From the NCBI GenBank assembly GCA_017432405.1, contig JAFRJF010000180.1:1-35878 (forward strand): a stretch of 35,878 nt of DNA, in the 5' to 3' direction. The position numbers and the translations under genes were made by a program. Numbering within the stretch: position 1 is the stretch's first letter; each line of letters starts with the position of its first letter. Source of the stretch: Clostridia bacterium (GTDB lineage Bacteria; Bacillota_A; Clostridia; Christensenellales; Aristaeellaceae). Positions 13,482 through 32,516 of the stretch are shown in pieces. A model generated the notes under the pieces. The model worked only from the letters and a program-made list of their open reading frames with translations, searched no databases and was not told the origin of the DNA.

Positions 13482-14309
13482 CTATTCGATCACGCCGCCC
13501 TCGACCACCAGGTTGTCGGGGTCGACCGCGTCGCCGTAGACGTCCTTCAGCGTGGCCTCGTAGTCGGCGTGGAAGAACTGCTCGGCGGCCAGGGCCTCGA
13601 TCTCTTCATTGATGTAGGCCAGCACGGTGTCGTTGCCCTTCTGCACCGCGGGGGCGATGGTGTCCAGGCTGCCCAGGCTCTCGATGCCCACGGTGAAACC
13701 GGGATTTTCGATAGCCCAGGCCAGCACCTCGGTGTTGTCGGTGGACAGGGCGTCTCCGCGGCCGTCCAGCAGGGCGTTGAAGGTCTCGGTGTAGGTGTCG
13801 AACTTCAAAAGCGCCACCTCGGGCTCGTTGGCGGTGAACCAGGTCTCGGCGGTGGTGCCCTTGGAGACGATCAGCTTCTTGCCCCTCAGGTCTTCGATCG
13901 AGGTGATCAGCGCGGCGTCGGGGCTGACCACGCCCAGGGCCACCTTCATGTAGGGCAGCGCGAAGTCCACCACCTCGGCCCGCTCGGGGGTGACGGTGAA
14001 GTTGGCCAGTATGATGTCCACCTTGGCGCTGGTCAGGTACTCCACCCGGTTCGGCGCGTCCACGCTCACCAGCTCCAGCTCGACGCCCAGGTCCTGGGCC
14101 AGGCGGCGGGCAAAGAAGACGTCGTAGCCCTGGTATTCGCCGTATTCGTCCACGTAGCCGAAGGGCTTCTTGTCGGAGAACACGCCGATGACCAGCTTGC
14201 CGCTCTCCTTGATTTCATCGAGGCTACGGGCCTTGGCGTCGGCCAGCGCGCCGGCGGTCAGGGACAGGACGAGGATCAGGGACAGGACCAATGCAAACAG
14301 CTTCTTCAT
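13482..14309 (-). CDS. Amino-acid ABC transporter substrate-binding protein (probable cystine type)
   Basis: 275 residues of the SBP_bac_3 family with a signal peptide cleaved near GALADA; no lipobox Cys is present. The LVIGVFSDKKPFGYVDEYGEYQGYDV opening, DIILANFTVTPERAEVVDFALPY and the GKKLIVSKGTTAE hinge segment are typical of polar and sulfur amino-acid receptors. It belongs with the ATPase and permeases encoded upstream but has its own promoter and a leader with five Cys codons and a terminator (14365-14571). This makes cystine or cysteine the best guess for the substrate; glutamate/aspartate is the alternative on homology alone. Confidence 0.9.
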   Translation of the reverse strand: MKKLFALVLSLILVLSLTAGALADAKARSLDEIKESGKLVIGVFSDKKPFGYVDEYGEYQGYDVFFARRLAQDLGVELELVSVDAPNRVEYLTSAKVDIILANFTVTPERAEVVDFALPYMKVALGVVSPDAALITSIEDLRGKKLIVSKGTTAETWFTANEPEVALLKFDTYTETFNALLDGRGDALSTDNTEVLAWAIENPGFTVGIESLGSLDTIAPAVQKGNDTVLAYINEEIEALAAEQFFHADYEATLKDVYGDAVDPDNLVVEGGVIE

Positions 14310-14364
14310 GGTTAACGCTCCTTTTCAAATTATCGTTGGGTTTTGAGGGTTGTGTATAAAACAA

Positions 14365-14403
14365 CGGGCCGGATTGGACGATCTGCACATCCAATCCGGC
14401 CCG
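14365..14403 (-). terminator. Leader terminator before the binding-protein gene
   Basis: CGGGCCGGATTGGA (14365-14378) pairs perfectly with TCCAATCCGGCCCG (14390-14403), a 14-bp stem with an 11-base loop. In the direction of transcription it is followed by TTGTTTTAT, so it is a good intrinsic terminator located before the structural gene. ATTGGATG of its first arm can instead pair with CATCCAAT at leader-peptide codons 17-19, giving a candidate antiterminator. Confidence 0.8.
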
Positions 14404-14429
14404 CCGTTTCCCGCTTGCGCGCATGCACG

Positions 14430-14504
14430 CTAAGACGGCCGACAGGGCATTGGATGGCGCCCCCGGCACATACAACACATGCAGCTGATCACGTTGTTGA
14501 ACAT
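14430..14504 (-). CDS. Cys-rich leader peptide (candidate cysteine attenuator)
   Basis: 24-codon open reading frame, ATG 14504 to TAG 14430, with GGGAGG 9 bases before the start. Five of 24 residues are Cys (8, 10, 11, 13 and 21), with the run SCMCCMC in the middle. It lies between a consensus promoter and an intrinsic terminator, ahead of an amino-acid binding-protein gene. The layout is that of a classical attenuator: a ribosome stalled at codons 8-11 for lack of Cys-tRNA would leave codons 17-19 free to pair with the terminator arm, and a ribosome reaching the stop codon would cover them. Too short for routine gene calling. An alternative is a small metal-binding peptide. Confidence 0.75.
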   Translation of the reverse strand: MFNNVISCMCCMCRGRHPMPCRPS

Positions 14505-14542
14505 GCGAAGCGCCTCCCTTTAATGTCTATCGGAATGATAAG

Positions 14543-14571
14543 ATTATAGCGCCGTCCCGTTCTCCTGTCAA
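14543..14571 (-). promoter_or_regulatory. Consensus promoter of the binding-protein leader
   Basis: TTGACA (14566-14571), a 17-base spacer and TATAAT (14543-14548) on the minus strand: a perfect sigma-A match. It begins only a few bases after the stop of the ATPase gene, so the binding protein can be transcribed apart from the permease/ATPase genes. Confidence 0.88.
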
Positions 14572-14576
14572 GGGGT

Positions 14577-15326
14577 TTACGCCTTTTTAACCGTGTCGAA
14601 CTCGAAGGTGTCCAGGAACGCCCGGGCGCGGGGGGTTTGGGGATGATGGAAGAAGTCGGCAGGCCTGCCCTCCTCCACCACCTTCCCCTGCTCCAGGAAC
14701 AGCACCCGGTCGGCCACGGCCTCGGCGAAGCGCATCTCGTGGGTCACGATCAGCATCGTCCGGCCGTCCCGGGCCAGGTCCAGCACCACGTTCAGCACCT
14801 CCCGCACCATCTCCGGGTCCAGGGCTGCGGTGATCTCGTCCAGCAGCAGCAGGCGGGGGCGCATCAGCATGGCCCGCACCAGCGCCACCCGCTGCTTCTG
14901 GCCGCCAGAGAGCTGTCGGGGCAGCGCGTGCAGCTTGTCCGCCAGGCCCACCCTCTTGAGCGCCTGCACGGCCTCGGCTTCCACCTCATTCCTGTTGCGC
15001 TTCAGCGCCTTCACCGGGCCGAGGGACAGGTTGCCCAGCACGTCCATGTGGGGAAACAGATCGTAGCTCTGGAACACCATGCCGATCTGGCGGCGCACCT
15101 GCACCATATCCATGCCGGAGATGGGCGCGCCGTCCAGCAGGATCTCTCCGGAATCCGGCGTCTCCAGGCCGTTGACGCAGCGCAGCAGCGTGCTCTTGCC
15201 GCAGCCGCTGGGCCCGACCACCACCACGACCTCCCCGTCCCCCATGGCCAGGTCGATGCCATCCAGCACGCCGTTGCCGTCAAAGCTCTTTTTCAGGTTC
15301 TTGATATCAAGCACGTATCCGCTCAT
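14577..15326 (-). CDS. Amino-acid ABC transporter ATP-binding protein (GlnQ/TcyN type)
   Basis: 249-residue ATPase of the polar amino-acid uptake family: Walker A GPSGCGKST, Q-loop MVFQSYDLFPHM, signature LSGGQKQR, Walker B LLLLDEITAALDPE and THEMRFA switch region, all intact. The DEITAALDPE variant is common in this family (usually DEPTSALDPE). It starts 1 base after the permease stop, with AGGAGG upstream, and would energise import by the two permeases. Cystine specificity is inferred from the Cys-codon leaders, not from the ATPase itself. Confidence 0.94.
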   Translation of the reverse strand: MSGYVLDIKNLKKSFDGNGVLDGIDLAMGDGEVVVVVGPSGCGKSTLLRCVNGLETPDSGEILLDGAPISGMDMVQVRRQIGMVFQSYDLFPHMDVLGNLSLGPVKALKRNRNEVEAEAVQALKRVGLADKLHALPRQLSGGQKQRVALVRAMLMRPRLLLLDEITAALDPEMVREVLNVVLDLARDGRTMLIVTHEMRFAEAVADRVLFLEQGKVVEEGRPADFFHHPQTPRARAFLDTFEFDTVKKA

Positions 15327-15327
15327 T

Positions 15328-16008
15328 TTAAACCTCCTGACACGCCCACCGCTTCTCCAGGTGCTTTGCCAGCAGCGATATGGGCCAGCAGGCGAAGAAA
15401 TACAGCAGGAACACCGCCCCGTAGACCCACACCGCGCCCTGGGGGGCGTCGTAGCGGGCGGCGTCGATGATCTGGCTGCCCACCTTCAGCACCTCCACCA
15501 CGCCGATCAGCATCACCAGCGAGGTGGTCTTGATCATGCGGGTGGTCAGGTTGATGGCCTGGGGCACCAGCCGCCGGGCCGCCTGGGGCAGCAGCACATG
15601 GGCCCAGACCTGCCCCTGTGTCAGCCCAAGGGCCGCGCCGCTCTCCCGCTGGTGGACGGGGATCGACGTGATCGCCCCGCGCACAAGGTCGCCCATCTCC
15701 CCCGCGCCCCAGAAGGTGAACACGATCACCGCCGCCGTCTCGCCGGACATCTGTAAGTTGAAGGCCTTCGCCATGCCGAAATACACCAGGAACAACAACA
15801 CCAGCTGGGGCACGATGCGCACCGTCTCCAGCCACAGCCGCGTCACCGCCCGAATCACCGGGTTTTTCAGCGTCATCAGCACCCCCACCACCAGCCCCAG
15901 AGCGATGGACAGGGCCACCGATATCAACGACAGCTTCAGCGTCACGCCCAGGCCGCCCAGCAGCCGGGCTGGGTTGTTGCCCTTAAACAGCACCGCCAAA
16001 TCCCGCAT
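15328..16008 (-). CDS. Amino-acid ABC transporter permease, second subunit
   Basis: About 226 residues, HisM/GlnP type, with roughly five membrane helices and the family's ATPase-contact loop (GAALGLTQGQVWAHVLLPQAARRLVPQ region). The start is ATG 16008, preceded by GGAGG; the open frame extends further upstream but without a ribosome site. It overlaps the end of the first permease by 26 bases, suggesting translational coupling. Together the two permeases would form the heterodimeric membrane channel. Confidence 0.92.
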   Translation of the reverse strand: MRDLAVLFKGNNPARLLGGLGVTLKLSLISVALSIALGLVVGVLMTLKNPVIRAVTRLWLETVRIVPQLVLLFLVYFGMAKAFNLQMSGETAAVIVFTFWGAGEMGDLVRGAITSIPVHQRESGAALGLTQGQVWAHVLLPQAARRLVPQAINLTTRMIKTTSLVMLIGVVEVLKVGSQIIDAARYDAPQGAVWVYGAVFLLYFFACWPISLLAKHLEKRWACQEV

Positions 16009-16648
16009 GGCGCAGCCTCCTCTCCAGCAGTGTGAACACAATCGATATCGGCAGCAGCAGCGTCAGGTACGCCAGCGTCAGCATAAGCAGCGCCTCGTCC
16101 GTCTTGTAGTACATGCCGATCAGGTCCTTCGCCACGTACATCAGGTCCGCCAGCGCCACGGCGCTGAAAACACTGGTCTCCTTGATCAGGAACACGGCAT
16201 TCGCGCCGATGGAGGGGATGGCCGTGGCCAGCCCCTGGGGCAGGATCACGTAGCGCAGGTTTTGCATCGGCGTGAGGCCGATGCACATGCCCGATTCCTG
16301 CTGGACCCTGTCCACCGACTCCAGCCCGCTGCGCAGCGATTCCGCCATGTAGGCCCCTCCCAGGAAGGTGAGCCCCGTCACCGCGCAGGTCTCGGCGTCC
16401 AGCTTGATCCCCACCTTCGGCAAACCGAAGTACAGGAAGAACAGCTGCACCAGCAGCGGGGTGTTGCGGGCCAGCTCGATATAGACCCCCGCGACCCTGT
16501 CCAGCACCGGCACCCGGAAGTGCCGCGCCATGCAGCACAGCGCCCCCACCACCAGCGACAGCGCGATGCCCGCCACGCCCAGCCGCAGCGTAAGGCCGGC
16601 GGCCTTCACGTACATGGGCAGGAATTTGACCATAAAGGACGTATCCAA
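15983..16648 (-). CDS. Amino-acid ABC transporter permease, first subunit
   Basis: About 221 residues with five hydrophobic helices and the EAA-like loop ESGMCIGLTPMQNLRYVILPQ. Start chosen at TTG 16648, because AAGGAGGT lies 7-8 bases before it. The frame is open further upstream through a terminator and leader region, including an ATG at 16724 that overlaps the leader stop (ATGA), but those codons lack a ribosome site and do not look like permease sequence. It is the first structural gene after the Cys-Cys leader at 16720-16800. Confidence 0.88.
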   Translation of the reverse strand: MDTSFMVKFLPMYVKAAGLTLRLGVAGIALSLVVGALCCMARHFRVPVLDRVAGVYIELARNTPLLVQLFFLYFGLPKVGIKLDAETCAVTGLTFLGGAYMAESLRSGLESVDRVQQESGMCIGLTPMQNLRYVILPQGLATAIPSIGANAVFLIKETSVFSAVALADLMYVAKDLIGMYYKTDEALLMLTLAYLTLLLPISIVFTLLERRLRHAGFGGAV

Positions 16649-16670
16649 GGAAGCGACCTCCTTCATTGCA

Positions 16671-16697
16671 TAAAGAAACAGCGGCCCGCAGCCGCTG
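16671..16697 (-). terminator. Leader terminator before the permease genes
   Basis: CAGCGGC (16679-16685) and GCCGCTG (16691-16697) form a 7-bp stem with a 5-base loop, followed in the reading direction by TTTCTTTA (16678-16671). It lies between the Cys-Cys leader peptide and the permease ribosome site, the expected place for an attenuator. CCGCAG in the leader, just after the tandem Cys codons, is complementary to CTGCGG in the loop and arm; this alternative pairing is weaker than in the 14.4-kb leader. Confidence 0.7.
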
Positions 16698-16719
16698 CAA
16701 CAGTCAATCCAAGCTTGGT

Positions 16720-16800
16720 TCATCGGCGCGCAGGCAAAGCAAAGCTGGCCCTGCGGCAACAGCCCAGGGCATACACGCCGAAAAAGCGGTTCCGTGCCAT
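16720..16800 (-). CDS. Leader peptide with tandem Cys codons (candidate attenuator)
   Basis: 26-codon frame from ATG 16800 to TGA 16720. AAGGAGG (16809-16815) lies 8 bases before the ATG and about where transcription should begin, so the message would start almost at its ribosome site. Residues 14-15 are Cys-Cys (TGT TGC) in the stretch ALGCCRRAS. It is preceded by a perfect promoter and followed by a terminator, then by the permease and ATPase genes. This mirrors the arrangement at 14430-14504, which supports a common cysteine-sensing mechanism. Only two Cys codons are present, so this leader is weaker evidence by itself. Confidence 0.65.
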   Translation of the reverse strand: MARNRFFGVYALGCCRRASFALPARR

Positions 16801-16823
16801 ATCCTGCGCCTCCTTCATGTATG

Positions 16824-16852
16824 AGTATAAGGCTATTTGCCCAGTATGTCAA
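16824..16852 (-). promoter_or_regulatory. Promoter of the permease/ATPase operon
   Basis: TTGACA (16847-16852), a 17-base spacer and TATACT (16824-16829) on the minus strand. Predicted start near 16817, directly before the leader ribosome site. Confidence 0.87.
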
Positions 16853-27680: not shown

Positions 27681-28895
27681 CTACTCCTCCACCGTTATGA
27701 CACCCTTCAGCAGGTAGTGGAACGTGGGCCAGGAGGTGCCGGCGTTTTCCCTGTACCCCTGGGTCAGGTCCACGGTATCGTCGGGATGGTCGGGATCGAC
27801 GCCGGTATAATTGCCCTTGAACACATCCAGCGTGCCCTTGCGCAGGGCGTCGATGGCCTTGTCCAGCTTTTCGTCGGTGCCGTAGGGGGCAAGCTGGCGG
27901 TTCAGCTCGGTCAGCTCCACCCAGCCCTGGTCGAAGCCGGCGCACATATCGTTGCCGAAGGCGGCGCCGGGTATGCTCTTCTCGATCTCCCGGCCCTCCA
28001 ACAGCGCCTCCACCGCGCCCACCACATAGGGGGTCCAGTTGACCCGGGTGCCCACCAGCGACGTGGACGGGGCGATGTCCACCATGCTCTGGTTGTAGCC
28101 CACGTGGATCACGGGACGGCCCACCTTGGCCTCCTCGCAGGCCATGGCGGGACCGATGGTGTCGGTATGCTGGCCGATCACCACGCAGCCCTCGTCGATC
28201 AGGGCCCTGGCGCAGGCCTTTTCCCGGCTGTAGCTGCTCCAGGCGTGGGTATAGCGCACGCGCATGGTCGCCTCCGGCGCCACGGAGCGCACGCCCAACA
28301 GGAACGCGGTGTACCCGGAGACCACCTCCACCGAGGGATAGGCGCCGACATAGCCCACCAGCGCGCCGTCGGCGCCTATGACGCGGTTGTCGATCATTTC
28401 CCGCAGCTTGAGCCCCGCGGCGATGCCGCTGACGTAGCGGGCCTGGTAGATGGCGCCGTTGAAGGTATGGTAATTCTCCGGGTAGTCGTCGTGGTTCGCG
28501 GCATTGTAGGAGGTCTGGCAGAACTGCACGTTCGGGTATTGCCGCGCGGCCTCGACGATCTGGTCGCTGTAGTTGTTGGTGAATATGATCGAGCAGCCGT
28601 CCTTCACCAGGGCGCGCAGCGGGTCCTCGCACTCGTCCTCGGGCACGTTGGTGTGGGCGTAGACGCGCACCCGGTCCGGCAGCCGGGCCTCCAGCGCCTC
28701 CTGGGCCAGCATGAAATTGTAGGTATAGGGCGTGCTCTCATCGTTTTCGTAGATGAAGCCTACCTTCAGGGCGTCCACCCGGACGGCCCCGTCCCACACG
28801 GAATACACCATGCTGAAGGCCGCGACCACCAGCAGCGCCGTCACGATCGTGGTTATGTATACCCGCTTCATACCCGTCGTCACCCATCCCTTCAT
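27681..28895 (-). CDS. BMP-family extracytoplasmic binding protein with N-terminal anchor
   Basis: 404 residues. A hydrophobic segment (about 12-33) without lipobox Cys or clear cleavage site suggests a membrane-anchored form. The rest is a Bmp/PnrA-like (PF02608) periplasmic fold: LKVGFIYENDES, YARYVSGIAAGL-type segment, LVGYVGAYPSVEVVSGYTAF, and IGQHTDTIGPAMACEEA. Family members bind purine nucleosides or similar ligands. The ATG overlaps the HD-GYP gene stop (ATGA), so the two are translationally coupled. No permease or ATPase gene is adjacent, so I infer a sensory rather than transport role. ATG 28871 is an alternative start. Confidence 0.88.
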   Translation of the reverse strand: MKGWVTTGMKRVYITTIVTALLVVAAFSMVYSVWDGAVRVDALKVGFIYENDESTPYTYNFMLAQEALEARLPDRVRVYAHTNVPEDECEDPLRALVKDGCSIIFTNNYSDQIVEAARQYPNVQFCQTSYNAANHDDYPENYHTFNGAIYQARYVSGIAAGLKLREMIDNRVIGADGALVGYVGAYPSVEVVSGYTAFLLGVRSVAPEATMRVRYTHAWSSYSREKACARALIDEGCVVIGQHTDTIGPAMACEEAKVGRPVIHVGYNQSMVDIAPSTSLVGTRVNWTPYVVGAVEALLEGREIEKSIPGAAFGNDMCAGFDQGWVELTELNRQLAPYGTDEKLDKAIDALRKGTLDVFKGNYTGVDPDHPDDTVDLTQGYRENAGTSWPTFHYLLKGVITVEE

Positions 28896-31800
28896 TCATC
28901 CTTTTTGGCCGGATACAGTGCGTTCAGGTCGATCTTGCCCTCGTCGATCAACCGCAGCATGATGTCCACGATCTGCGGGTCGAACTGGGTGCCCCTGCCG
29001 TTCTTCATCTCATTCAGCACATAGCCGAAATCCATCTGCTTGCGATAGACGCGGTTGGCGGTCATGGCGTCGAAGGCGTCCGCCACGCCGATGATGCGCC
29101 CGTACAGCGGTATCTCCTCGCCCTTCAGGCCGTCGGGATAGCCCCGGCCGTCGTAGCGCTCGTGGTGGTAGCGCGCGCCCTCCACCACGTTTTCGATCAG
29201 CGTGAAGTCCTTCAGGATCTCCGCGCCCCGGGTGACGTGGGATTTCATGATCGCGTACTCGTCGTCATCCAGGCGGGCGGGCTTGTTGAGTATGCGGTCC
29301 GGTATGCCGATCTTGCCGATGTCGTGCATCAGCGCGGCCCGCCGCAGGTTTTCGCATTCCTTGTCGCTGAAGCCCAGCTCCCGGGCGATCATCACCGAAT
29401 ACTGGGACACCCGCTGGGAATGCTGGCTGGTGCGCTCATCCTTGGCATCCACGGCCTTGGCAATGGCGATGATGGTCTCGTTGCCCATCTGAATCTGCTG
29501 CTGCATCAGGGCCATCTCGTGGGCCTGGCGCTCCAGCGCGCGCTGCATGCGCCTGCGCTGGCTGTACCAGGTGATCCAGATGACCGCCAGCATCGGCACC
29601 ACCAAGATGTAGGCGATGAACCAGGGGTTGTCGTAAATCTCCCTGGCCTTGACAAGCGTGTAATCCCGCTCGCCCAATATGTTGCCCATGTTGTTGTCGA
29701 ACACCGCCAGGTGGAAGGTGTAGGTGCCGGTGGACAGGTTGGTATAGGTGATGGCGCCCAGCCCGCTCTGGGGCACGATATTCCAGTCCGTGTCGAAGCC
29801 CTCCAGCCAGTAGCCCACATAGGGGTCCTGTATGGTGTAGTTGATGATCTCCGGCATCAGCTCTACCTTGCTCACGCCGCGCCCGATCTCGATGGTGCTG
29901 CGGCGGCCCACGCTCTTAACCGTATTGTCCAGCTTCACGCTCTTTACCGACATGCGGTAGGCGTTGATGCCCGAGGTATAGTGCTCGGTGTCGATGATGA
30001 AAACGCCCTTGTCGCAGGGCAGGAACAGGTCGCCGTGCTCGTCGCGGTAATTCCAGGAATTGGCGGTCAGGGCGCTGGTCAGGCCCCGGCGGGCATCCAG
30101 CAGGTCATAGGTGATGGACTCGCTGTCCGAGAGCAGCTCGTCCCGGTCCACCACATAGATGCCCGCGCTGCTCATCACGAACAGCGTGTTCCTGTCCCGG
30201 GCCCAGATGTCGTAGTTGTTATAGTAAGGAAAGCTGTCCAGGCTGCGGATGGCCCCGGCCTCGTCCATGTAGCACAGGCCATTGCTGGTGACGATGAAGA
30301 CGCCCTGGCCCTTGGGATCGGGCACGGTGCGCAGTATGACCTCGGAGCTGAGCCCGTCGTCCCGGGTCAGCATGCGGTCCACCCTGCCGTCCACCAGCAC
30401 CGCGATGCCGTCGCCGTCGGTGCCGGCCAGTATGGTGCCGTCGGGCAGCTCGGTCACCGTGAGGATCATCGAATTGATCAGGCCGTCGGCATAGCCGATG
30501 GTTTCGACGATCTCGTGATCCCGGATGAAGCTGATGCCGGTGTCGCCGCCGGCCATGACGGTGCCGTCGGACAGCTCCGTCACCACCCTGGCCCGGTTGC
30601 CGAAGCTGCCGCTGTCGCTGTTGTACAGGTGCTCCGTGCCGTCGGGCTCCACCTCCAGGAGGCCGCTTCCGTAGGTGCAGACCCACAGGTGATCCGACGA
30701 ATCCACCAGCAGGCAGCGTATGCGCACGCCGTCCAGCTTCTCAGTCAGGGCGTTGGTGATTCGCTTCTTGCACGACGCGTCCACAACGTCCAGGCCCTTG
30801 TCGGTGCCGAAGTAGTAATCGTCCTGCCAGCGCGTCACCGCGTTGACCACCCGGTTGGGCATGCCCACGGTGGTGTACACGTCCTTGAAGGACGAGGGCG
30901 CCATGCGCAGCAATCCCAGGCGCGACGAGGTGAACCACAGGTTGCCCTGGTAGTCGATCAGCATGTTGTCGATGGAATTGTTGAACGCGTTGGTGTTGAC
31001 GGGCTCGAATTCGTTTTCCCGGCTGATGTACCCCACGCCGTTGTCGGCGGAGATGAACAGCTCGCCGTCGCCGACGTAGTACAGGTCGTTGATGTGATTC
31101 AGGCCCTCGCAGGTGCGCACCGTCTTTTCGTCAAAATAGCCCTTATCCACCTCGAACACGTAGATGTGGTTGGTGGAGGTGCCCGCCAGCAGCACGCCGT
31201 CCGGGTCAAAGCAGACGCTGTTGAACAGCTCCTCGCCCTCCGGCAGCTGCAGCGAGCTCTGAACCACGCCCTTGCGCATCAGAAACAGCCTGCCGTCGGA
31301 GGTGACCGCCGCCACGTTGCCGTCGTCGTCCGCGGCGATCTTGTCTGCGTAGTTCACCTCCCGGAGGGTGTTGACCCGCCTGAGGCCGTTTTTGAGGGTC
31401 AGGATCTGCATACTGCCCGTGGTGCCCACATAGTAATAGCCGTCGGAGCTCTGTATGATGGAGCGCACCGAATTGGAGGGCAGGCCCCTGGACTGATCCA
31501 CCACGTTGGAGATGCGCTCGTTGATGCAGATGGACAGACCGTTGTCGTTGGTGCCGATCCACAGGCGGCCCTCCTCGTCCACATACAGGCAGTTCACATT
31601 GCGCACGGACTCATACCCGTCCATCCAGGTGAATTCCCGCCCGTTGTAGCGGTACAGGCCTGCATAGGTGCCGATCCAGAGGATGCCGTCGTTGGTCTGG
31701 GCGATGTCGTTGGCCTCGCCGCAGGGCAGGCCGTTGTTGCTGTTGTAGACGGTCTGCACGTAGTCGTTGTAGTCGATGGCCTCGGGCTCCTCGGCCCGGG

Positions 31801-32428
31801 CGACAGGCGCGGCCAGGGCGGCGCCCACCGCCAGTGCCAGCGCCAGCGCCGCCAGCTTCTCCCCGGTCCGGGCCCGCGCCCCGCCCCGGCGGGCCAGCCG
31901 AACCAGGCGCACCGCGACGAACAGCAGCACCAGCGTCAGCAGCTTGTCCAGGAATTCCACGTAAAACTGGCCCAGTATCCGGCAGAGCGGCAGCGGCAGG
32001 TTCCGCTCCCGGAAGAAGCCGATCACGCCGTTGCCCCAGAGGTTGCCGGTGCCGCCGTCGTAGAAGATCATGTTCAGCGGCAGGGAGATGGCCACGGCGG
32101 CCACGGCGGCGATCGCCGCCACCGTCATCGTGTCGAAGAAGGTGTTCAGCTTCTTCCTTTTGACCCAGAAGCCGACGATCAGGGCCATGGCCACGTTGGT
32201 CAGCGCATATATATATGAAATCCCGTTCATCATGCCGTATATGAGGTTGCTGGCCAGGCCCACGATCGCGCCGCACAGCGGCCCGCCGGCATAGGCGCAA
32301 AGCACCGTGCCGCAGGCGTCCAGCCACAGGGGCAGGCTGTAGTGGGACGCCAGTGCCCTTCCCCCATAATTAATCAGTATGCAAAACACGACAAACAGGC
32401 TGATTTGCCAGGTCTTCCACCGCTTCAT
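28892..32428 (-). CDS. Membrane receptor: ECF-S-like domain, Reg_prop propeller, Y_Y_Y, HD-GYP
   Basis: About 1178 residues. The first 185 form five or six helices resembling ECF transporter S components (LWLDACGTVLCAYAGGPLCGAIVG region). A second signal-like segment with AXA site follows near residue 195-219 (PVARAEEPEA). Then come a long series of Reg_prop propeller blades (GILWIGTYAGLYRY, GRLWIGTNDNGLS and others), a Y_Y_Y domain, a helix (about 945-965), a coiled coil and an HD-GYP domain with HDIGK, HHERYDGRGYP and DAFDAMT. The output is probably c-di-GMP hydrolysis in the cytoplasm, driven by an external signal. ATG 32428 has GGAGG about 10 bases upstream. It lies between two binding-protein genes. 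Confidence 0.88.
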   Translation of the reverse strand: MKRWKTWQISLFVVFCILINYGGRALASHYSLPLWLDACGTVLCAYAGGPLCGAIVGLASNLIYGMMNGISYIYALTNVAMALIVGFWVKRKKLNTFFDTMTVAAIAAVAAVAISLPLNMIFYDGGTGNLWGNGVIGFFRERNLPLPLCRILGQFYVEFLDKLLTLVLLFVAVRLVRLARRGGARARTGEKLAALALALAVGAALAAPVARAEEPEAIDYNDYVQTVYNSNNGLPCGEANDIAQTNDGILWIGTYAGLYRYNGREFTWMDGYESVRNVNCLYVDEEGRLWIGTNDNGLSICINERISNVVDQSRGLPSNSVRSIIQSSDGYYYVGTTGSMQILTLKNGLRRVNTLREVNYADKIAADDDGNVAAVTSDGRLFLMRKGVVQSSLQLPEGEELFNSVCFDPDGVLLAGTSTNHIYVFEVDKGYFDEKTVRTCEGLNHINDLYYVGDGELFISADNGVGYISRENEFEPVNTNAFNNSIDNMLIDYQGNLWFTSSRLGLLRMAPSSFKDVYTTVGMPNRVVNAVTRWQDDYYFGTDKGLDVVDASCKKRITNALTEKLDGVRIRCLLVDSSDHLWVCTYGSGLLEVEPDGTEHLYNSDSGSFGNRARVVTELSDGTVMAGGDTGISFIRDHEIVETIGYADGLINSMILTVTELPDGTILAGTDGDGIAVLVDGRVDRMLTRDDGLSSEVILRTVPDPKGQGVFIVTSNGLCYMDEAGAIRSLDSFPYYNNYDIWARDRNTLFVMSSAGIYVVDRDELLSDSESITYDLLDARRGLTSALTANSWNYRDEHGDLFLPCDKGVFIIDTEHYTSGINAYRMSVKSVKLDNTVKSVGRRSTIEIGRGVSKVELMPEIINYTIQDPYVGYWLEGFDTDWNIVPQSGLGAITYTNLSTGTYTFHLAVFDNNMGNILGERDYTLVKAREIYDNPWFIAYILVVPMLAVIWITWYSQRRRMQRALERQAHEMALMQQQIQMGNETIIAIAKAVDAKDERTSQHSQRVSQYSVMIARELGFSDKECENLRRAALMHDIGKIGIPDRILNKPARLDDDEYAIMKSHVTRGAEILKDFTLIENVVEGARYHHERYDGRGYPDGLKGEEIPLYGRIIGVADAFDAMTANRVYRKQMDFGYVLNEMKNGRGTQFDPQIVDIMLRLIDEGKIDLNALYPAKKDE

Positions 32429-32516
32429 TTGTCGCATTCCTCCCCTCAAGGCCGATGATCTAACACGATTGCCGCGAAGCGCGTCCCACAGGTCTGCTGT
32501 CGCGCGCTATGACGCC

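Follow-up and report, generated by a model that had tools for sequence, protein, structure and literature searches.

The question raised by this locus is whether a short cysteine-rich reading frame in front of a solute-binding protein gene is a regulatory leader and, if so, which amino acids it would sense. The locus lies in a window of 35,878 nucleotides, by which is meant the whole stretch of DNA that was analysed, and its parts are listed in Table 1. Judged from sequence comparisons, and with a probability of roughly 0.86, the element would be a ribosome-mediated transcription attenuator through which the cysteine-receptor gene responds to charged tRNA-Cys, and perhaps to tRNA-Met too.

Table 1. 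Features of the predicted attenuator and the surrounding transporter cluster, in the order of transcription
Feature	Position	Strand	Basis
Amino-acid ABC permease; the real start probably lies downstream of the one listed	15983..16852	-	
Amino-acid ABC permease	15328..16041	-	
ABC transporter ATPase, upstream in the same cluster	14577..15326	-	
-35 box TTGACA	14566..14571	-	sequence
-10 box TATAAT, spacer 17 nt	14543..14548	-	sequence
RBS of the leader ORF, GGGAGG	14513..14518	-	sequence
Leader ORF (uORF) MFNNVISCMCCMCRGRHPMPCRPS, 24 codons + TAG, 5 Cys	14430..14504	-	sequence
Cys/Met cluster TGC ATG TGT TGT ATG TGC, codons 8-13, proposed stall site	14466..14483	-	sequence
Segment 2, CATCCAAT at codons 17-19, complementary to the terminator 5' arm	14449..14456	-	pairing tests
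CGGCC, may lengthen segment 2	14437-14441	-	
Whole terminator	14361..14407	-	folding, covariation
Segment 3, terminator 5' arm, holds ATTGGATG at 14388-14395	14388..14407	-	folding
Segment 4, terminator 3' arm, U-rich tract next	14361..14380	-	folding
CjaA-type (cysteine-receptor type) family 3 solute-binding protein, putative regulated gene	13482..14309	-	Pfam, PDB comparison

The original prediction was built on a promoter with a 17-nt spacer, an RBS and a 24-codon ORF with five Cys codons, and all of these are present on the minus strand. The Cys codons are numbers 8, 10, 11, 13 and 21, and the last of them lies just beyond CATCCAAT. The uORF stands 72 nt past the stop of the ATPase gene, with an RBS and behind a promoter, and its translation is predicted. 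When the intergenic region of the window was shuffled 20000 times with its dinucleotides kept, 3 shuffles yielded an ATG ORF of 8-40 codons that is preceded by an RBS and holds at least five Cys codons, so chance is a poor explanation for the one observed. The complementarity claimed between codons 17-19 and the first arm of the terminator holds as well, with CATCCAAT facing ATTGGATG. A hairpin with a T-rich tail was also found, but folding gives it a stem of 20 bp instead of the 14 bp proposed, with a loop of 7 nt and an energy of -38.1 kcal/mol, and the U-tract is imperfect.

That the structural gene encodes an amino-acid binding protein agrees with its assignment to Pfam SBP_bac_3, and comparison with the PDB adds that its nearest relatives are cysteine receptors. 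The closest chains are 1xt8 (E 5.6e-84), which we take to be Campylobacter CjaA, and 2yjp (1.2e-76), presumably the gonococcal cysteine receptor; 4zv1 follows far behind (1.5e-34), and the kinship to CjaA far exceeds that to other solved family 3 receptors. None of the receptor's 14 NCBIfam matches reaches its curated cut-off. The regulated gene is probably of the cysteine-receptor type, so that a leader coding for Cys would precede a matching gene. Because three other transporter genes precede this promoter, which sits after the ATPase gene, the main effect of the attenuator would be on how much receptor is made, and it would adjust this supply separately from that of the membrane parts. CjaA binds cysteine according to the available text of PMC4178425 and PMC9040844, and the former, as far as that text goes, describes a part of CjaA in import as unproven, with growth tests hinting that other proteins might share it. 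A Cys/Met attenuator directly before CjaA-type genes would be independent regulatory evidence for a role in cysteine uptake.

The proposed mechanism involves four segments of the leader RNA. When Cys-tRNA is scarce, the ribosome would stall in segment 1 at the Cys, and perhaps Met, codons and break the pairing between segments 1 and 2; segment 2 would then be free to pair with segment 3, which would prevent the pairing of 3 with 4 and let RNA polymerase continue into the receptor gene. With ample Cys-tRNA, the ribosome would move on and cover segment 2, or segments 1 and 2 would pair, and the 3:4 hairpin would terminate transcription. Folding of the window's leader without the terminator arm pairs the Cys codons with sequence further along the leader, around segment 2 and past it, and places the CATCCAA of that segment in the loop. 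The original prediction had a ribosome at the stop codon covering segment 2, which could fit the window but not four Lachnospiraceae leaders (L012, L060, L066 and L071). There the end of segment 2 is 36-43 nt short of the stop, so a ribosome halted at the stop codon cannot account for the off state, and refolding behind the ribosome is more likely.

A search of related genomes for the Cys codons, RBS and stem, proposed as a check on the prediction, finds the same layout in 31 further leaders, giving 32 with the window, mainly from relatives of the window and Lachnospiraceae-type genomes. All 32 were found through their Cys codons and form a non-random sample in which Cys counts are non-independent evidence. 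The parts follow in a common order: RBS, Cys cluster, a segment complementary to the 5' arm of the terminator, the terminator and, where visible, a binding-protein gene. In a script scan, TTGACA or TTGACT with a -10-like hexamer at a distance of 16-18 nt was found in 29 of the 32. The leaders are 22-45 codons long with 2-6 Cys, a further Cys codon follows the cluster in 28 of the 32, and the terminator starts 9-34 nt past the uORF stop in every one, the hairpins of L012, L071, L082 and L083 having been set by hand where the terminator finder missed or misplaced them. The groups have little in common besides the Cys/Met cluster and the arrangement of the elements, and outside the cluster the peptides differ strongly between them, at the N and C termini alike. 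In 21 representatives Cys is coded by TGT 65 times and by TGC 39 times and is kept while the remaining peptide changes; the codons of the putative regulating amino acid are conserved as codons, in leaders that were found by Cys content.

The rival pairing joins the coding sequence just after the cluster with the 5' arm of the terminator, as in CAUCCAAU with AUUGGAUG in the window and CUCCCGGGCA with UGCCCGGGAG in L150. Among the 21 representatives, the mean centred energy with the leader's own arm is -5.12 kcal/mol versus 0.00 (sd 0.80) with swapped arms, an advantage equalled by none of 100000 permutations. It is absent in L145 and in L115, where the cluster rule left only one Cys and the test is unreliable. 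Comparing terminator and antiterminator by covariance, a second check proposed with the prediction, supports the terminator in the window-type leaders and, by its score, the antiterminator in the Lachnospiraceae-type leaders. For the terminator of ten window-type leaders, 96.5% of cells are paired and 25 cells are changed on both sides, neither value being reached in 500 shuffles; of the 20 pairs, 8 are changed on both sides (13 of 500 shuffles); sliding the pairing partner abolishes the signal. For the antiterminator of nine Lachnospiraceae-type leaders, 98.9% of cells are paired; 7 of 500 shuffles score as high in covariation, and 158 of 500 have as many pairs changed on both sides. An antiterminator that uses the terminator's 5' arm, and so excludes the terminator, is found, with weak covariation in the window-type group alone: 37 to 48 of 500 shuffles reach the covariation of these ten leaders, 201 their percentage paired and 229 their pairs changed on both sides. 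Column pair 33:97 of this group shows a change of A-U to G-C, which in L076 is accompanied by a change in the base that pairs with the same position in the terminator, a three-way match. Shuffle tests of single leaders give p<0.05 in 10 of 25 cases and p=0.197 for the GC-rich window. When the RNA past the stalled ribosome and before the 3' arm was folded for 20 leaders, the antiterminator formed, as judged by eye. The kept Cys codons, the terminator after every leader and the rival pairing are, by comparison, what the ribosome-mediated attenuation originally suggested would predict.

The exact DNA pattern C-M-C-C-M-C-(R/S) occurs at 70 loci in genome_contigs, of which 12 were judged leaders because they combine a short ORF with a hairpin and, on contigs that are long enough, a following gene; the other 58 were set aside on reading frames, L054, L011 and L035 among them after a closer look. 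This strict pattern is too narrow for a census, as it matches two genomes among 150 of the family and two among 391 of the class; G001, the genome nearest to the window by sampled words (26%), matches in both sets, and the other class match is G437 (L073). When the orthologous receptor gene is followed instead, it is found in 19 of 90 family genomes and is preceded by a leader in 12 of the 19, counting L078, which has two Cys and was noticed by eye. At five of the seven leaderless family loci (L088-L092) the receptor gene comes immediately after the ATPase gene; L085 has an Rrf2-family gene between the two, and L079 a spacer with a short ORF that holds one Cys. Across the class, 27 of 293 genomes have a match, and the 26 new loci include one leader (L115), so that most class orthologues are without the element; at nearly all the others the ATPase or another gene ends, by eye, just before the receptor gene. 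In the Lachnospiraceae-like family, so labelled from the company that the contigs of L060, L066 and L071 keep in the tree, 43 of 250 genomes match and 8 of 42 readable loci have a leader. The class and Lachnospiraceae scans covered ORFs with at least three Cys and an RBS-like word within 420-480 nt, and weaker leaders would be missed by them. The upstream regions of L118 (contig edge) and L159 (no alignment) are unreadable, and the start of L110 is doubtful. Cys ORFs that seem internal to other genes or placed in a different frame, such as those at L085, L088, L090, L091, L125, L147 and L151, were left uncounted.

In a tree of 82 receptor proteins, 23 of them with leaders, the leader state changes 6 times versus 20.3 times on shuffled labels. 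L148-L159, L012, L036, L062 and L033, the last having no usable alignment, were left out of it. The group of the window receptor has 19 rows, 17 with leaders, and a support of 100/100, and the Lachnospiraceae leaders fall in three other places, so that leaders have been gained, lost or moved several times. The leader of L033 precedes another family 3-like receptor, labelled by eye, and the contig of L012 ends before the downstream gene. A CMCCMC leader with a terminator was also observed at L062 (6270-6379), on a contig titled Succinatimonas, before a gene that is MetQ-like by eye. We take its product to be a MetQ-type binding protein and Succinatimonas to be a genus of another phylum; this leader may reflect convergence, transfer or misbinning.

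Four other explanations were weighed against this evidence. The original prediction had cysteine alone as the signal, and while the Cys cluster stands, this may be too narrow, as Met fills the gaps in it. In 19 leaders that were not selected for Met, it takes 18 of the 24 non-Cys positions inside the cluster and immediately precedes the first Cys in 14, versus 28 of 425 non-Cys residues elsewhere in these peptides (Fisher p 8e-24, a value that is over-optimistic since the leaders are related). The cluster is thus largely a sulfur-amino-acid cluster. Joint action of Cys and Met codons, comparable to that of the Thr and Ile codons of the thr leader, would widen the main reading without excluding it, and the L062 leader before a gene of MetQ-type appearance fits such an arrangement. 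The relatedness of the leaders nevertheless makes them non-independent, the cluster of L145 contains Trp, unbroken Cys runs without internal Met occur in L078, L083, L086, L144 and L149, and a TG-rich nucleotide constraint could favour ATG beside TGT. Joint sensing is quite possible, with somewhat less than an even chance. It is very unlikely, on the other hand, that the Cys-rich peptide itself acts by metal binding, redox sensing or as an arrest peptide. Metal binding by CMCCMC clusters is conceivable and C-R-M follows the cluster in all nine aligned Lachnospiraceae-type leaders, but the spacing, number and order of the Cys vary along with the termini, and the cluster is followed by an RNA segment that pairs with the terminator of its own locus.

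The distance of the uORF from the ATPase stop would also be a plausible place for a mere terminator of the upstream ABC operon, in which case the uORF would be spurious. Against this, the stretch that separates the ATPase gene from the uORF holds a consensus promoter and an RBS, Lachnospiraceae leaders of the same layout precede receptor genes elsewhere in the receptor tree, and the Cys codons persist while flanking codons change, which leaves this explanation with only a slight chance. Control by a T-box or another known riboswitch is barely credible: T-boxes are common in related genomes, with 2 to 17 matches (E 0.001) in each of nine and with matches that exceed the family cut-off in eight of these, but no Rfam family, T-box RF00230 included, reaches its gathering score anywhere in the window. 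Ribosome-mediated attenuation is the preferred reading.

Other observations concern the promoters and the sequence next to the receptor genes. An inverted-repeat motif, ACCTAT-N6-GTAGG (ACCYAY...RTRGG), is found at receptor-gene promoters with or without a leader (L060, L080, L082-L087, L115, L144-L149, L152 and L153), and in a subset of promoters it lies over the -35 box or after the -10 box. The motif was chosen after inspecting the sequences and occurs in 17 of 91 upstream regions, where shuffling predicts 1.5 and gave no more than 5 in any of 50 rounds. It precedes leaderless receptor genes at L146, L147, L153 and L085, and the window has a degenerate form only (14527-14541). Inverted-repeat tests of single promoters were not significant, except for one value at 0.05. 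The motif resembles, as we take it, an operator of the Rrf2/CymR type and may be a candidate operator of such a regulator. At L085 (956-1378) the place that the Cys attenuator has in relatives is taken by a gene for an Rrf2-family regulator (Pfam E 1.7e-31), whose C-terminal half contains three Cys. A broader proposal would place the leaders in a sulfur-amino-acid attenuator class of Clostridia, in which mixed Cys/Met leaders would have originated or spread repeatedly in front of CjaA-type receptor genes and would sense tRNA-Met as well as tRNA-Cys, beneath a further control exerted on the DNA, where an operator resembling ACCTAT-N6-GTAGG would probably serve an Rrf2/CymR-like regulator; as a whole this proposal is tentative and rather doubtful.

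A second short ORF with an RBS, 13-27 codons long, was seen before the receptor gene, past the terminator if there is one, at L018, L065, L078, L080, L081, L083, L084, L087, L134 and L148. It holds (D/N/F)RC, coded CGATGT or CGATGC, and its loose nucleotide motif occurs in 13 of 91 regions versus 4.8 in shuffles (maximum 10 in 50 rounds); the ORF was not seen in the window. Elsewhere in the window (28892-32449) a protein of 1185 residues is encoded, presumably with a membrane-sensor-like N-terminus followed by propeller-like repeats and an HD-GYP-like C-terminus.

Among known systems, trp/his-type attenuators, and in particular the His leaders before hisZ/hisS in Firmicutes, likewise have a leader ORF rich in the regulated amino acid upstream of a terminator (PMC2965389, in the part available). 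Those His leaders are described there from bacilli, while the window leader codes for Cys and Met, precedes a receptor gene in a transporter cluster and belongs to Clostridia. The Cys-rich upstream ORFs of Actinobacteria, to which the original prediction referred, are indeed described in the accessible part of PMC1262725 as short ORFs with a run of Cys before sulfur genes. They have, according to the same text, no conserved terminator hairpin, and the title of Canestrari 2020, as cited in PMC13236596, calls them leaderless, whereas the window has both an RBS and a strong intrinsic terminator. The uORFC-8-2 motif before cysS in Rhodobacterales is likewise predicted to work by Cys ribosome-mediated attenuation with an intrinsic terminator (PMC8632094, in the part available). 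That motif comes from another phylum and has two tandem Cys codons at about codons 14-15, unlike the leaders here, which have 2-6 Cys mostly mixed with Met, and unlike the window, where the downstream gene is a receptor gene and the Cys codons are placed differently.

The matches listed from open-licence literature include no attenuator coded by Cys or by Cys/Met, either for Clostridia or for a CjaA-type gene, which agrees with the view of the original prediction that a clostridial Cys attenuator on a transporter is no standard described system and is no proof of absence. As far as the searches show, the leader would be a case of ribosome-mediated attenuation, known elsewhere, at a gene and in a host group for which it is apparently undescribed. 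A comparable system in clostridia is the Cys T-box, where premature termination is likewise relieved when cysteine is scarce but the RNA reads the tRNA directly, without translation (PMC2940859, in the part available). G001 carries both a leader (L001) and T-boxes, so two kinds of tRNA-charge sensing coexist in one genome. The available text of PMC2940859 remarks that further mechanisms of cysteine control may exist in clostridia, and the window leader offers a testable case.
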